Assembly (NCBI GenBank): GCA_903834185.1
Contig: CAILHX010000018.1
Span: 1-64,000, forward strand
Length of the DNA: 64,000 nucleotides
Direction: 5' to 3'
DNA from: an uncultured Methylophilaceae bacterium
GTDB lineage: Bacteria; Pseudomonadota; Gammaproteobacteria; Burkholderiales; Methylophilaceae
The translations under genes were made by a program, and so were the position numbers. Below are positions 57,555 through 64,000 of the stretch, one piece after another. The number at the start of each line of letters is the position of its first letter. The stretch's first letter is position 1. The notes beneath the pieces were generated by a model. That model saw only the letters and a program-made list of their open reading frames with translations, was not told the DNA's origin and searched no databases.

Positions 57555-59129
57555 TTAATGTGCACCACTCGACGCTACGCCAGCGGTGGCTGTGGATTTT
57601 ACAGGTTTTGCCAACCAAACCAGCCCGATTAACCCCAGGCAGATGAGTGAAGAGGCATAAAATATATCGTCCGCTGACAGTATGGCTGCTTGCTGGGTGA
57701 CGATCTGGTTGATCTGCGCTGTCGCTTGAGCCAGTGTCATTCCACTCTGTAGTAATTTATTCAAGGCATCGCTGGCTTGGGCATTGTAAGACGAAATATG
57801 TTCGATCAACTGCGTATGGTGCAGGGTAGTGCGGTTATCCCATAATGTGGTGGCGATAGAAGTGCCAAAAGCACCAGCGGTGATGCGCAGGAAATTGGAC
57901 AATCCGGAGGCTGCAGGAATCTGATCCGGTCTTAGCCCCGATAAAGTCAAACTCACCAACGGAATGAAGAAGAATGCCATGGCGATACCCTGGATGATGG
58001 TCGGTACCAATAGGGTGTGCACATCGGTCTGCGTGTTGAAGCCGGAGCGCAAGTAAAATACCAGCGCGAAAACCATGAACGCGACGCTGGCAAGCAGGCG
58101 TGGATCCACCCGGTTTACGTTCTTGCCGACAATAGGCGAGAACAGAATCGCCAAAACGCCTACCGGTGCAGTCACCAGTCCCGCCCAGGTAGCGGTGTAA
58201 CCCATGTATTCCTGCAGCCACAGCGGCAGTAACACCACATTGCCAAAGAATACGCCGTACCCTAGCGACAGCGCGACAGCGCCCACGCTGAAGTTGAGGC
58301 GCTTGAACAGGCGCAGGTCTACCACCGGATGTTCTTCGGTAAGCTCCCAGATCAGGAACACCACGAATCCGACCATTGCGATCAACGCTAGCGTCAGGAT
58401 CAGAGGAGAAGCCAGCCAGTCCAGTTCCTTGCCTTTATCAAGCGCGATTTGCAGCGAACCTACCCAGATCACCAGCAATGCCAGGCCTACGGCGTCCACC
58501 GGCAATTTGCGGGTCGGTGATTCGCGCTTGCGGTATATCACCCAGGTGATCCAGGCCGTGGCCAGGCCTATTGGAATGTTGATGTAGAAGATCCACGGCC
58601 AGGAAAAGTTGTCGGTAATGTAGCCGCCTAGCAATGGTCCTGCCACTGGTGCCACCAAAGTGGTCACCGACCACATTGCCAGAGCGGTACCCGATCTGCT
58701 TGCGGGATAACTGGATAACAGCAGGGATTGCGACAGCGGGATCATGGGCCCGGCGACTGCACCCTGGATCACGCGGCATACGATCAGTAATTCAATGGAA
58801 GGTGCAAGGCCGCACAGCAGCGATGCCAGCACGAACAGCACTACCGACCAGGTAAACAGTCGCACTGCACCGAAGCGCAGGGTCAGCCATCCGGTTAACG
58901 GAATCGAAATCGCGTTGGCCACAGCGAACGAGGTAATGACCCAGGTCACCTGATTGAGGGATACGCCCAGATCGCCGCCGATAGTGGGCAGGGAAACGTT
59001 GGCGATGGAACTGTCGAGCACGTTCATGAAGGTGGCTAACGACAATGCGATGGTGCCCAGCACCAGGGAACCGCCTTTCAGCGGTCCCGGAGTTGCAAGG
59101 GTATTTGCCGTTGTCGTCTGCTCAGCCAT
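57555..59129 (-). CDS. emrB: DHA2-family multidrug efflux transporter (EmrB-like)
   Basis: 524 residues with about 14 transmembrane helices. The N-terminal LATFMNVLDSSIANVSLPTIGGDLG and the antiporter motif PVAGPLLGGYITDNFSWPWIF identify the DHA2 (EmrB) branch of the MFS. It exports drugs by proton antiport through EmrA and the outer-membrane factor. It is the last gene of the marR operon, 19 bases after emrA. Confidence 0.94.
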   Translation of the reverse strand: MAEQTTTANTLATPGPLKGGSLVLGTIALSLATFMNVLDSSIANVSLPTIGGDLGVSLNQVTWVITSFAVANAISIPLTGWLTLRFGAVRLFTWSVVLFVLASLLCGLAPSIELLIVCRVIQGAVAGPMIPLSQSLLLSSYPASRSGTALAMWSVTTLVAPVAGPLLGGYITDNFSWPWIFYINIPIGLATAWITWVIYRKRESPTRKLPVDAVGLALLVIWVGSLQIALDKGKELDWLASPLILTLALIAMVGFVVFLIWELTEEHPVVDLRLFKRLNFSVGAVALSLGYGVFFGNVVLLPLWLQEYMGYTATWAGLVTAPVGVLAILFSPIVGKNVNRVDPRLLASVAFMVFALVFYLRSGFNTQTDVHTLLVPTIIQGIAMAFFFIPLVSLTLSGLRPDQIPAASGLSNFLRITAGAFGTSIATTLWDNRTTLHHTQLIEHISSYNAQASDALNKLLQSGMTLAQATAQINQIVTQQAAILSADDIFYASSLICLGLIGLVWLAKPVKSTATAGVASSGAH

Positions 59130-59148: not shown

Positions 59149-60402
59149 TCAGGATTTCCCGGCTTTGGTTTCAGCAACGGCACCAGAAACTGCTCGTCCC
59201 AGGTTGTTGCGGATGATCTGTTTCACCAGCACCTCTGCGGCTGCAGCCTGGGAGTCCATCTGAGCTGTAGTGGAGATAGGCGTGGTGCGCACAGCATCCG
59301 TCAGCAGTTTTCCGCTGTCATCAGTGACGTTGATCTCGGCCTGCATTGAAAGACCGACTCGCAACGGATGCGTTTTCAGTTGCTCCTTATCCAGCTCTAC
59401 CCGCACCGGGATACGTTGCACGATCTTGATCCAGTTGCCGGTGGCATTCTGCGCCGGTAGCAGCGAAAAGGCAGCACCGGTTCCGGCGCCAAGGCCGACC
59501 ACGTGGCCGGAATACTGCACTTTGTTGCCGTAAATATCGGCACGCAGGTCCACCGGCTGATTAATGCGCATACGGCGCAACTGCACTTCCTTGAAATTGG
59601 CATCCACCCATACCTGATCCAGCGGAACGATAGCCATCAGTGGCGCACCGGTCTGTATACGTTGCCCGATCTGCACACCGCGCTTGGCTACCTGGCCTGC
59701 GGCGGGGGCGGTGATGTCGCAACGTGCCCGCGCCAGATATGCTTCGCGTACGTGGGCTGCCGCGACTTGTACGCTGGGATGGGTATCCACAGAGGTGCCA
59801 TCGGTTTGTGCCCGACTGGAAAGCAGTTGTTGTTGCAAGCCGGCAAGGCTGGATTCGGCAGCGGACTTTGCACTGAGCGCGTTGCTCAGTGCCGTTTGTG
59901 CATGCTGCAATTCCTCTGTGGATACCGCTCCGGAACTGATCACCGATTCGCGCCGTTGCAGGTCTTCCTGCGCATTGCTTGCCTCTGTCTTCGTCTGCGC
60001 CAGTTCGGCCTTACTCTGGTTGATGTTAGCGATCAGCACTTCGTCATTTGAATACAGCGTCCTGGCCTGACGTACCGCCTGGGCCAGTTCGGCCTCCGCC
60101 TGCTTCAGCGCAAAATCGGCATCGGTGGGGTCAAGCCGGATCAGCACCTTGCCCTGGGGCACGAAATCGGTGTCATCGGCATTGATCTCTACCACCGTGC
60201 CGTTGACTTGCGGGGTGATCTGGATGACATTGCCGGCCACATAAGCGTCATCGGTAGACTGATAGTTCCGCCCCACCAGAAACCAGTAAGCGAACCATGC
60301 CGCACCCACTAACAGTAAGAACAGCAGTACGCTGGTGAGCAGCAGTTTTCTGTTGCCATTGCTGGCAGGGGTAGTAGGCTTGGATGGTTGGGGTTCACTC
60401 AT
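59149..60402 (-). CDS. emrA: EmrA-like membrane fusion (HlyD-type) adaptor
   Basis: 417 residues. One transmembrane helix (about 20-42), biotinyl/lipoyl-like half motifs, a long coiled-coil hairpin (about 100-215) and a beta-barrel domain (VDANFKEVQLRRMRINQPVDLRADIYG). AAGGAG lies 9 bases before the ATG at 60402. It links EmrB to the outer-membrane factor. Confidence 0.94.
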   Translation of the reverse strand: MSEPQPSKPTTPASNGNRKLLLTSVLLFLLLVGAAWFAYWFLVGRNYQSTDDAYVAGNVIQITPQVNGTVVEINADDTDFVPQGKVLIRLDPTDADFALKQAEAELAQAVRQARTLYSNDEVLIANINQSKAELAQTKTEASNAQEDLQRRESVISSGAVSTEELQHAQTALSNALSAKSAAESSLAGLQQQLLSSRAQTDGTSVDTHPSVQVAAAHVREAYLARARCDITAPAAGQVAKRGVQIGQRIQTGAPLMAIVPLDQVWVDANFKEVQLRRMRINQPVDLRADIYGNKVQYSGHVVGLGAGTGAAFSLLPAQNATGNWIKIVQRIPVRVELDKEQLKTHPLRVGLSMQAEINVTDDSGKLLTDAVRTTPISTTAQMDSQAAAAEVLVKQIIRNNLGRAVSGAVAETKAGKS

Positions 60403-60432: not shown

Positions 60433-61917
60433 TCATGATGGTTTGCCTACTCCGGTTTGTGAGGTGCTGTCGAACCCCCCGCCCAGGCTTTTGATCAGGG
60501 CAATGTTGAGATCAATTTCGCGCCCACGCAAATTCACCATGCGGCTGCGTTCGCGCAGCAAAGTATCTTTTGCATTAAGTACGGTAAGCAGCGTGGTTAG
60601 TCCAGCCTGATAGCGAATGGTAGCCAGCCGGTAGGCCGATTCCGCTGAATCGAGCGCTGCCTGCTGATCGTCCTTTTGCAGGCGCACCGCTTTGATGGAA
60701 GTCATCTGGTCGGCGACGTCGTGGATAGCTTCCAGCAATATCTGGTTGTAACTGGCGATGGAAATATCCAGATCCGCATTTTTGGAACGCAGATCTGCGC
60801 GCAATCTGTCGGCGTCGAATATCGGCAAATGTATAGCCGGACCAGCGCCGACGATGGTACTGCCAAGTTTGAGGAAATTGGACAGGCTGAACGAGGACAG
60901 GCCGATGAATGCCGACAGGCTTACGTTGGGATAGAACTCCGCCTTTGCACTGGCGCTATCGGCACCTGCTGCGTCCACGCGGGCTTTTGCCGCCGCCAGA
61001 TCGGGCCGGCGGCTGATGATATCTATCGGGATTTCGTCCGGTAATGTTTGCGCCGAAAAAACCGGCGCTACCGGTAGTATTGGTTGTAATCTGTTTATCG
61101 CTTGTGGATCTGAAGCCGTCAATGCCGCCAATGCGTTTCGGGTCAGACTGATTGCTTCCGTTGCGGTATCCACATCCACATGAGCAGCGGAAACATTGCC
61201 TTGACCTTGCTGCAATTCCACGTTGGTATCCAGCCCGGCTGAGATGCGCTGCTTGATCAGATCGAATTCCTGTTCGCGCTGCTTGAGCGCTTGCTCCGAT
61301 AATTTGAGTTGTTCTACCTGGCGCGCAAGCTGGTAGTAGGTTTGGGCTACTGCGGTCGAGACCATCAACCCAGCCGCGGACTCTTCCGCTTTGGCAGCAG
61401 CTGTTTGCGATAAGGCGGACTGCAACAAACTACGATTCTTGTCCCAGAAATCAATATCCCATGAGGCATTTAATTGCGCATTTACTATGTTCTCGTAAGC
61501 ACCGCCGAATGGGGGCGGGAAAAATGAGTTCTCGGTCAGGCGCTGGCGATTGAAATATGCATCGCCACTCAGCTGTGGAGCCAGCGTGGATTTTTCTGTA
61601 GTGACATAAGCCGCGGCTTTTTCAATACGTTTGGCTGCCTTTGTAATGGAAGGGTTTCCCTTTAACGCTAGTTCAATAAGACGATCCAGCTCGGGATCCT
61701 TGAGGCTTTTCCACCATTGTTCGGCAGGCCAGGCATCGAATTTGCCATGAGCGCCGATAGTCGCGGCATCGTGCAAGACCTGGTCATGCACGATGCCGCT
61801 CGGGCTGATACAGCCCTCTATGCTCATTACCGCAGCCAGTAATATTCCATGCAGCAGTTTTGGGCGAAACCGGCGTGTAGAACTTTCCTTGACAGAATTT
61901 TGCGATGCCTTGTTCAA
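60433..61917 (-). CDS. NodT-type outer-membrane efflux lipoprotein
   Basis: 494 residues, start TTG at 61917. A signal peptide with lipobox-like IEGC (Cys36) is followed by two OEP repeats, as in TolC/NodT factors (WWKSLKDPELDRLIELALKGNP; RRPDLAAAKARVDAAGADSASAKAEFYPNVSLSAFIG). It completes the tripartite pump. The start lies 3 bases after the marR stop, so the two are coupled. Confidence 0.92.
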   Translation of the reverse strand: MNKASQNSVKESSTRRFRPKLLHGILLAAVMSIEGCISPSGIVHDQVLHDAATIGAHGKFDAWPAEQWWKSLKDPELDRLIELALKGNPSITKAAKRIEKAAAYVTTEKSTLAPQLSGDAYFNRQRLTENSFFPPPFGGAYENIVNAQLNASWDIDFWDKNRSLLQSALSQTAAAKAEESAAGLMVSTAVAQTYYQLARQVEQLKLSEQALKQREQEFDLIKQRISAGLDTNVELQQGQGNVSAAHVDVDTATEAISLTRNALAALTASDPQAINRLQPILPVAPVFSAQTLPDEIPIDIISRRPDLAAAKARVDAAGADSASAKAEFYPNVSLSAFIGLSSFSLSNFLKLGSTIVGAGPAIHLPIFDADRLRADLRSKNADLDISIASYNQILLEAIHDVADQMTSIKAVRLQKDDQQAALDSAESAYRLATIRYQAGLTTLLTVLNAKDTLLRERSRMVNLRGREIDLNIALIKSLGGGFDSTSQTGVGKPS

Positions 61918-61920
61918 AAT

Positions 61921-62370
61921 CTAGTCTCCCGAGTTAGCAAGAATGCGCTTCAGCATTGATTTCAGGGTTTCGACTTCTTCTTTGCTGAAGCCACGCAAAT
62001 GCTGATTCAAAGTCTCGGCAACCAAAAATGGCACTTTTGATACCAAAGGTTGCGCTTCTGCTGTGAGTTCAAGAAAAATGACACGTCTGTCATCTGCGCT
62101 GCGTTTACGGGTAAGCAATCCCTTGCTTTCAAGCCTATCCAGCATCCGCGTCATCGAACTGGTTTCGACCCCCAGGCAGCGTGAAAGATCTGCAGCTGTA
62201 ATATTTGTTTTGGAGAGAGATATAAATAGCAGAGGCGCCCATTGCAAGGCGGTCAAATCCAGTGCAGACATCTTGCCATCTATACTGCGTTGCAAAGCTG
62301 CCTGCGCTTTTTTCATCAGGTAGCCGATAGATTCTTCAATCACATAATCTTGACCACGGTAAAAATCCAT
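61921..62370 (-). CDS. MarR-family transcriptional regulator
   Basis: 149 residues, winged helix-turn-helix: TAADLSRCLGVETSSMTRMLDRLESKGLLTRKRSADDRRVIFLELT. It is the first gene of the efflux operon and probably represses it, with relief by a drug or phenolic ligand. The likely operator is the 44-bp palindrome 46 bases upstream. Confidence 0.93.
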   Translation of the reverse strand: MDFYRGQDYVIEESIGYLMKKAQAALQRSIDGKMSALDLTALQWAPLLFISLSKTNITAADLSRCLGVETSSMTRMLDRLESKGLLTRKRSADDRRVIFLELTAEAQPLVSKVPFLVAETLNQHLRGFSKEEVETLKSMLKRILANSGD

Positions 62371-62415
62371 TATCTCAGCCTTAATCGAGTTGGTGATGAC
62401 GGTGCTTTTATTAAC

Positions 62416-62459
62416 ATTGCATTGACAATAACTGCATATGCAGTTATTGTCAATGCAAT
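62416..62459. promoter_or_regulatory. 44-bp perfect palindrome, likely MarR operator/promoter
   Basis: Left arm ATTGC ATTGACAATAACTGCAT is exactly mirrored in the right arm. Each strand contains TTGACA and, 17 bases on, TATTGT, so the palindrome holds two overlapping, opposite promoters of the same form. The minus-strand one points to marR. A MarR dimer (or two) bound here would block both. The role is inferred from position and symmetry. Confidence 0.75.
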
Positions 62460-62634
62460 TATAAAAAATTAAGTTTTATCCAGTATTCACGTGGATAGTG
62501 ACGGTATTGAGCGCGGCAAGCGGATCTGACGCAGCTCAGGCAGGCTTTGAGGAACAGCTTCTGGGCTCACATCCTGTAGCGCTTAATTCGTATTCATCCC
62601 TAAACCGATCCCGTTCTCTACAAAGCCTAAACCA

Positions 62635-62664
62635 ACCAGGCATTGATATATATCAATGCCTGGT
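62635..62664. promoter_or_regulatory. FNR/ANR box within a 30-bp palindrome
   Basis: TTGATATATATCAA at 62643-62656 is an exact match to the FNR/ANR consensus TTGAT-N4-ATCAA and is embedded in a longer perfect palindrome (ACCAGGCATTGATA and its mirror). Its centre is 41.5 bases before the ATG of the copper ATPase gene. Control of that gene by oxygen through FNR is inferred. Confidence 0.68.
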
Positions 62665-62690
62665 CACGCGTATGAAGCTAAGCTGGTTAG

Positions 62691-64000
62691 ATGCAAGCAG
62701 TCCTACCAGATTCTGACTTATTCGCTGAGCCCGAAAGGGAGGTTGTTCAATGGATAGCGCTGGATGATCCACAGGAATGGGAGGAGTTCAGTCATCCCCA
62801 CGGCGGCTCTCAATCCAACCTATGGGAATCCAATCTGGTCATAGAAGGGATGCATTGTGCAGCTTGCTCACTCAATGTAGAGCATGCATTGAAATCAGTT
62901 GAAGGCGTAATCAGCGCTGAAGTCAACGCAAGCAGCGAGCGTGCGCGAATCATTTGGTCTGCAGATTCGACCAAACCTTCAGACTGGATGCGTGCAATAG
63001 TCAGGGCAGGATATCGTGCGCTGCCTGCAACAGATACATCGTTGTTTGAAAAGCGACGCAAAGAGCAGCGCCTGGCGCTGTGGCGTTGGCTGGTTGCCGG
63101 GTTCTGCATGCTACAAGTGATGATGTATACCATGCCTGCCTATATATCAGGATTTGGCGACATGACTCCCGATGTCAGAATGCTACTGCAATGGGCTGCA
63201 TGGATATTGACTTTGCCGGTGATGATTTTCTCTTGCGGGCCATTCTTCAGCAATGCATGGCGCGATATCAAGCAGCACATGATCAGCATGGATTTTCCTG
63301 TTTCACTCGGCATTATCATCACCTTTGGCGTGAGTACTGCTGCAACTTTTCAGCCTAGCGGTTGGTGGGGTCAGCAAACGTACTTCGATTCTCTCACCAT
63401 GTTTGTTTTCTTCCTGCTCACGGGACGCTGGCTGGAGCTTCGCCTCCGCTCGCGAACAGCCGGTGCGCTGGATGACTTGATGCGTCGTCTACCGGATAGC
63501 GTAGAACGTCAGAACGCCGACGGAAGTTTTACCAGAATTGCCGTACGCCGACTTATGCTGGGTAATGTAGTTCGTGTACTTGCTGGTGAGTCTTTTCCAG
63601 CGGATGGCACTATCGTCATGGGTGAAACGCAGGTAGATGAAGCATTGTTGACAGGAGAGTCGCGGCCTGTATTGAGAAGTATGGGTTCAGCAGTAATCGC
63701 GGGTAGCCACAACCTGAACTCGGCGGTACTGGTGAAGGTTGAACAGCTAGGCAAGTCAACGCGTTATGCGCAAATCGTGGCATTAATGGAACGGGCATCG
63801 GTAGACAAGCCGCGGCTTGCGTTACTTGCAGACCGTCTCGCCAGGCCTTTTATCCTTTTGGTGTTGCTGGCTGCTGCGGGTGCAGCCGCATTCTGGTGGC
63901 GCAACGACCCGGGACGTGCATTGATGGCAGCCGTCGCGGTACTGGTAGTCACTTGTCCCTGCGCTTTGTCTCTCGCAACCCCTGCAGCCATGCTGGCTAG
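62691..64000 (+). CDS. ccoI: CcoI/FixI-type copper-translocating P-type ATPase (partial)
   Basis: 436 codons are visible before the window edge. N-terminal heavy-metal domain with GMHCAAC (Cys56, Cys59), transmembrane helices from about 125, actuator motif TGES (near 320) and the ion-channel motif CPC (Cys422, Cys424, in TCPCALSLATP). The DDPQEWEEF stretch before the metal domain matches CcoI/FixI, which supplies copper to the cbb3 oxidase. The Cys-rich segment usual at the far N-terminus of that family is missing. The start at 62691 is the only in-frame ATG ahead of the metal domain, but has no clear ribosome binding site. The phosphorylation domain is outside the window. Confidence 0.88.
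   Translation, partial: MQAVLPDSDLFAEPEREVVQWIALDDPQEWEEFSHPHGGSQSNLWESNLVIEGMHCAACSLNVEHALKSVEGVISAEVNASSERARIIWSADSTKPSDWMRAIVRAGYRALPATDTSLFEKRRKEQRLALWRWLVAGFCMLQVMMYTMPAYISGFGDMTPDVRMLLQWAAWILTLPVMIFSCGPFFSNAWRDIKQHMISMDFPVSLGIIITFGVSTAATFQPSGWWGQQTYFDSLTMFVFFLLTGRWLELRLRSRTAGALDDLMRRLPDSVERQNADGSFTRIAVRRLMLGNVVRVLAGESFPADGTIVMGETQVDEALLTGESRPVLRSMGSAVIAGSHNLNSAVLVKVEQLGKSTRYAQIVALMERASVDKPRLALLADRLARPFILLVLLAAAGAAAFWWRNDPGRALMAAVAVLVVTCPCALSLATPAAMLA

Follow-up and report, generated by a model that had tools for sequence, protein, structure and literature searches.

The 44-bp perfect palindrome located between a marR-family gene and a ccoI-like gene in an uncultured Methylophilaceae bacterium is very probably the autoregulatory operator-promoter of a marR-OMF-emrA-emrB operon, as judged from sequence comparison. 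The DNA analysed, referred to here as the window, comprises 64,000 nt (assembly GCA_903834185.1, contig CAILHX010000018.1, positions 1-64,000), and the coordinates of its relevant features are summarized in Table 1. A sequence-only reading of the window had taken the palindrome for a site far longer than the usual MarR site of about 20 bp. The length of 44 bp is confirmed, but it reads as three 12-bp boxes with a 15-bp pitch rather than as one 44-bp site. The operator is of an ordinary kind, and its symmetry is unusual and apparently lineage-specific.

Table 1. Features of the window around the palindrome (positions in the window; strand given where it applies).
Feature	Position	Strand	Remarks
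EmrB-like DHA2 efflux permease	57555..59129	-	TIGR00711 532 bits, cut-off 230
EmrA-like periplasmic adaptor	59149..60402	-	PRK15136 430 bits and TIGR00998 366 bits, both under cut-off; HlyD_3 over cut-off
Outer-membrane efflux protein (OMF), NodT family	60433..61917	-	TIGR01845 387 bits, cut-off 210
marR-family regulator, 149 aa	61921..62370	-	PF12802 54 bits (cut-off 27); PF01047 49.2 bits (cut-off 24.6)
15-codon ORF from ATG at predicted leaderless start	62370..62417	-	stop TAA overlaps marR ATG (TAATG)
44-bp perfect palindrome	62416..62459		putative three-box MarR-type operator, overlapping divergent promoter-like sites
Third box at +15, exact mirror of the -15 box	62417..62428	+	probably derived in this lineage
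Mirrored divergent promoter-like site	62422..62450	+	-35 62422-62427; -10 62445-62450; predicted start ~62457
marR operon promoter (predicted)	62425..62453	-	-35 TTGACA 62453-62448; -10 TATTGT 62430-62425; start ~62418
Central operator box CTGCATATGCAG	62432..62443		family consensus (T/C)TGCCTAGGCA(A/G)
Second box at -15 (marR direction), TTGCATTGACAA	62447..62458	-	contains marR -35; conserved
30-bp perfect palindrome around FNR-type site TTGATATATATCAA (62643-62656)	62635..62664		before ccoI-like gene
P-type Cu ATPase (ccoI-like)	62691..63998	+	start of cbb3-oxidase-like locus continuing past the window

The palindrome is loop-free and all of its 22 pairs are matched, so that every base is mirrored, as had been noted before. 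The symmetry extends imperfectly beyond it, up to 31 nt per arm with 90% complementarity. From the base composition, about 4e-9 loop-free palindromes with arms of at least 22 nt are expected in 64 kb. Four loop-free palindromes with arms of at least 10 nt (22, 15, 13 and 12) are present in the 479,050 bases examined of the 2.18-Mb genome. The two longest, of 44 and 30 bp, share the 320-bp spacer that separates marR from the ccoI-like gene; the two others are found at L204:12117-12142 (26 bp) and L199:2319-2342 (24 bp). The 32-bp core of the palindrome occurs at a single location in the genome, even when up to three mismatches are allowed, and a mobile-element end or repeat family was rejected on this basis. 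A plasmid search with the marR/ccoI-like spacer as a query gave no match. At the level of the order, the mirrored pattern with at most one mismatch was found in 2 of 399 genomes, which are this genome and one other (G335, locus L133) with a one-mismatch match. The palindrome strand is predicted to fold as a strong hairpin (z -7.9). Exact matches to the half-operator pattern are confined to the palindrome in its own genome; 26 further matches (1 with one mismatch, 25 with two, compared to 3 for the reversed control) may reflect chance, coding bias or weak further sites.

The regulator belongs to the MarR family, with a winged-helix domain that scores over the curated cut-offs, and none of the NCBIfam models matches it at its cut-off. 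Among solved chains, SlyA is the best match, followed by PA3341 and MarR. The genes for the outer-membrane protein, EmrA and EmrB are located in series behind the regulator gene, which is the arrangement of an EmrAB-OMF efflux operon, with an adaptor that scores below both EmrA cut-offs. The synteny is observed among homologues as well: at least one of OMF, emrA and emrB flanks the marR homologue in 70 of 80 loci.

We collected 89 MarR homologues with at least 38% identity, including that of the window, 87 of which have usable upstream DNA (none for L075, and 11 nt for L043). A 12-bp box precedes marR in 85 of the 87 upstream regions, window included, when scored with a matrix trained on the same sequences; 100 shuffles give 0.92 on average and 4 at most. 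The two regions without the box are L063 and L078, and an equally high score was found in 1 of 16 more distant MarR loci. Further comparisons were made with 82 de-duplicated relatives (39-67% MarR identity), after removal of the window, L032 (identical to L003), L034 (box region identical to that of L033), L075, L043, L063 and L078. A second, weaker box is located exactly 15 bp upstream of the first in 54 of these 82 relatives, and in none at 13, 14, 16 or 17 bp. A box 15 bp downstream scores above 0 in six relatives and above 5 in three; in the window this third box scores 8.1, equal to the second box by symmetry. The information per column drops beyond approximately 12 nt downstream of the box centre. 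The conserved unit, read in the direction of marR, consists of TTGCATTGACAA, a linker, CTGCATATGCAG and the -10 element, and the window contains this unit followed by its mirror. A MarR autoregulatory operator is characterized by a conserved inverted repeat within the promoter region of the regulator's own gene, and the 12-bp box has this character.

On both strands of the palindrome, TTGACA and TATTGT are separated by 17 bp, as the sequence-only reading had recognized, with 10 of 12 consensus matches for each strand. These promoter elements, assigned by consensus match only, share the same DNA, with a 3-bp overlap between each -35 and the -10 of the opposite strand. They are the only sigma-70-like sites in 62300-62760, where shuffled sequences give 0.9 ± 0.9. 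The two promoters had been described as face-to-face, but the predicted starts are located outside the hexamers, and therefore the transcripts would diverge; convergent promoters are ruled out by this geometry. The position of the marR -35 is occupied by TTGACA with at least five of six matches in 37 of the 82 relatives (24 exact), where it overlaps the upstream box. The mirrored -35 of the plus strand is present, at the same threshold, in two of the 82. The proposal that MarR shuts a pair of promoters holds in so far as a MarR-type operator covers the marR promoter, according to the footprint in the 82 relatives, which is based on comparison only; the pair diverges, however, and its plus-strand member is rarely conserved. 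The plus-strand promoter-like site exists because the palindrome is symmetric, and it would be repressed too when MarR is bound.

Any plus-strand product would run into a putative FNR-type site ahead of the ccoI-like gene. The FNR-type consensus is TTGAT-N4-ATCAA, and the sequence at 62643-62656 matches it and precedes an anaerobic-respiration gene. From their translations, we take the genes beyond the window after the ATPase to be ccoN, ccoO, ccoP, ccoG, an FNR-like regulator and hemN. The FNR-type site is located approximately 200 bp from the marR operator and has 8 of 8 flanking pairs matched. At 11 other FNR-type motifs of the same genome, 1-5 of the 8 pairs match, and the 28 motifs scored in the ccoI loci of relatives reach 0-3 of 8. 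None of these 28 motifs shows the extended symmetry. By our reading of the positions, 13 of the 29 ccoI loci have an FNR-type motif no more than approximately 200 nt ahead of the ATPase match. An ATPase was found near the marR homologue in none of 119 loci compared, whose upstream flanks do not exceed 2.5 kb and are in part much shorter. The idea that the plus-strand promoter is a conserved partner of the marR promoter is not supported by these numbers, by the two occurrences of the mirrored -35 or by the FNR-type site that the ccoI-like gene has of its own. A leader RNA, which had also been suggested, finds no support either, since no Rfam family matches in 62000-63000 and a scan of 62300-62760 gave no terminator-like site, although the plus-strand promoter may still be active. 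A known structured RNA and a terminator were rejected on the same grounds.

The messenger of marR may be leaderless in this group of MarR proteins. An ATG is located 18-21 nt past the box centre in 44 of the 82 relatives, in frame with MarR in 43 of them. Total ATG counts are 5 at 14-17 nt, 47 at 18-21 nt and 12 at 22-25 nt. Together with a -10 element at +7 to +12, the position at 18-21 nt fits a leaderless message. In the window, the ATG of the predicted leaderless start does not share the frame of marR, which may mean that the frame of this region was lost here. The mirrored arm terminates within this ATG, and the pairwise alignment of the window with L004 has gaps at the same ATG, which is weak evidence.

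The perfect symmetry sets the window apart from its relatives. All 15 outer pairs are matched in the window, compared to a mean of 5.13 (sd 2.35, maximum 11) in the 82 relatives, and the product of the per-position rates of the relatives for 15 matched pairs is 2.9e-8. Conservation of the arms among relatives, which had been proposed as a check, was not observed for the full mirroring. The nearest relatives, L003 (67%) and L004 (64%), have kept the ancestral half and the centre, and lack both the mirror and the third box. Relatives carry an imperfect version of the palindrome, and the closest MarR homologue is only 67-68% identical, too distant to reveal a single step; the immediate ancestor is not among the sequences compared, and the palindrome is seen in one genome. 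Of 187 genomes of the bacterial family, this one and six others have a match at E <= 1e-20, and both genomes of the same genus (72-81% complete) are without a match. Partial mirroring, with 17 of 22 pairs, occurs in the homologues L066 and L072. Upstream of the MarR match in L069, from 143 nt onwards, there are mirrored 20-nt arms around an 8-nt centre in a homologous operator, apparently mirrored independently. Perfect 36-bp palindromes are located 20 and 10 nt before other MarR-like ORFs of the same bacterial family (L023:1419-1454 and L024:1369-1404, respectively). Among 30 fetched MarR_2 loci of the family, loop-free palindromes other than that of the window measure only 18-20 bp, which weakens the claim that long symmetric operators are common in the family.

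We hypothesize that the palindrome is where the MarR-family repressor acts, both on its own gene and on the downstream outer-membrane/EmrA/EmrB efflux operon. A MarR dimer would occupy the central 12-bp box and fill the spacer between the -35 and the -10, and further dimers could bind to the boxes on either side at a distance of 15 bp, including the one that holds the -35. Until a ligand frees the DNA, RNA polymerase would be kept out. We infer this steric autorepression from the footprint and from published descriptions of MarR regulators (PMC5401885, PMC13413800). The half on the ccoI side, with the -35 and a box, and the centre are probably ancestral, and the half on the marR side would be a lineage-specific mirror copy.

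The mirror copy could most simply have arisen from one template-switch (quasipalindrome correction) during replication, in which a single event is described to perfect an imperfect inverted repeat (PMC7202029, PMC8794818). We give such an origin of the mirror arm about an even chance. The linkers are mirrored as well as the boxes, which is more than selection on the boxes requires, and the out-of-frame ATG at the end of the arm and the 30-bp symmetry of the FNR-type site both fit this origin. Copying would have added the third box; the divergent promoter-like site would be a by-product, open to repression by MarR as well. Alternatively, the symmetry may have been built by selection, if MarR binds cooperatively as three dimers and there is a function in a symmetric array that silences the divergent promoter too. 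The partial mirroring in L066 and L072 and the 36-bp palindromes in L023 and L024 leave room for selection for symmetric operators. So do the high score of the third box, which is dictated by symmetry, the few other homologues that have a third box or long mirrored arrays (L066, L069, L087 and L104), and the regulator AesR, which is described as binding two adjacent repeats with two dimers (PMC13413800). We nevertheless consider selection rather unlikely: acting on the boxes, it would constrain no more than a portion of each, whereas the mirroring extends to the linkers, and under the per-position rates of the relatives the 15 outer pairs have a probability of approximately 3e-8.

It is quite improbable that the palindrome is a true bidirectional promoter, through which MarR would govern the efflux operon together with a plus-strand partner, either the ccoI-like gene or a leader RNA. 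The 10 of 12 consensus matches of the plus-strand promoter would agree with such a role; bidirectional promoters are described as common in E. coli (PMC12825309), and AesR as repressing its own and a divergent operon (PMC13413800). However, the scarcity of the mirrored -35 among relatives, the 119 loci without an ATPase, the separate FNR-type site at the ccoI-like gene and the lack of an Rfam match all argue against it. Transcription terminators, mobile-element ends and assembly artefacts can each yield long perfect inverted repeats, but we regard all three as very improbable here: no terminator-like site was detected around the palindrome, which is present at a single genomic place, lies mid-contig between open genes and has one half that matches the conserved operator. 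Returning to the template-switch, we tentatively offer a broader and somewhat doubtful generalization, namely that template-switching in replication, and not base-by-base selection, symmetrises bacterial operators. One event would have mirrored the -35/box half of the MarR operator, adding a third box and a divergent promoter and shifting the leaderless start out of frame, and the same process would have extended the FNR-type site to 30 bp. We speculate that template-switching could be especially frequent in the spacers that separate divergent promoters.

The operator offers a testable regulatory logic for a family of EmrAB-type efflux regulators in many proteobacterial loci, with a 12-bp box, a 15-bp pitch and a probably leaderless autorepressor. 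Should the mirror arm be the product of one step, it would illustrate how one mutation can supply a repressor site together with a new promoter. The palindrome also advises caution, in that a long perfect palindrome need not equal one long binding site.

We found no description of this operator in the open-licence literature searched; the 15 papers that contain one of its strings seem, from their titles, to concern other matters. It shares with the autoregulated efflux operons of the MarR, EmrR/MprA and SlyA type a regulator gene that comes first in an EmrAB-type operon and a palindromic box across the -35 and -10 elements. It differs from them in the sequence of the box, (T/C)TGCCTAGGCA(A/G), the 15-bp pitch, the full mirroring over 44 bp and the probable leaderless start in relatives. 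For MarR regulators, palindromes of 16-20 bp that often overlap the -35 or -10 elements are described as typical (PMC5401885). The protected region of AesR from Corynebacterium glutamicum, a MarR regulator, is reported to measure 44 bp as well and to serve its own and the divergent operon from one site. As described, it comprises two adjacent, unlike inverted repeats of 15 and 19 bp, with another sequence and another divergent target, whereas the window has one 44-bp palindrome (PMC13413800). In bidirectional bacterial promoters, symmetry is described to place elements on both strands such that one polymerase binding event blocks the other. The reported starts share a -10 and are mostly 18, 10 or 23 bp apart, whereas in the window the predicted starts are approximately 40 bp apart and each -35 overlaps a -10 (PMC12825309). 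Template-switching is described for mutational hot spots of E. coli and for RNA stems (PMC7202029, PMC8794818), whereas in the window, we infer, the element that it reshaped would be an operator and promoter. CrtR, also from C. glutamicum, resembles the regulator of the window as a local regulator of the MarR type, for which a leaderless transcript and perhaps just one site are reported, and differs, in the published account, in its operator and in its target, the divergent crt operon (PMC5401885).
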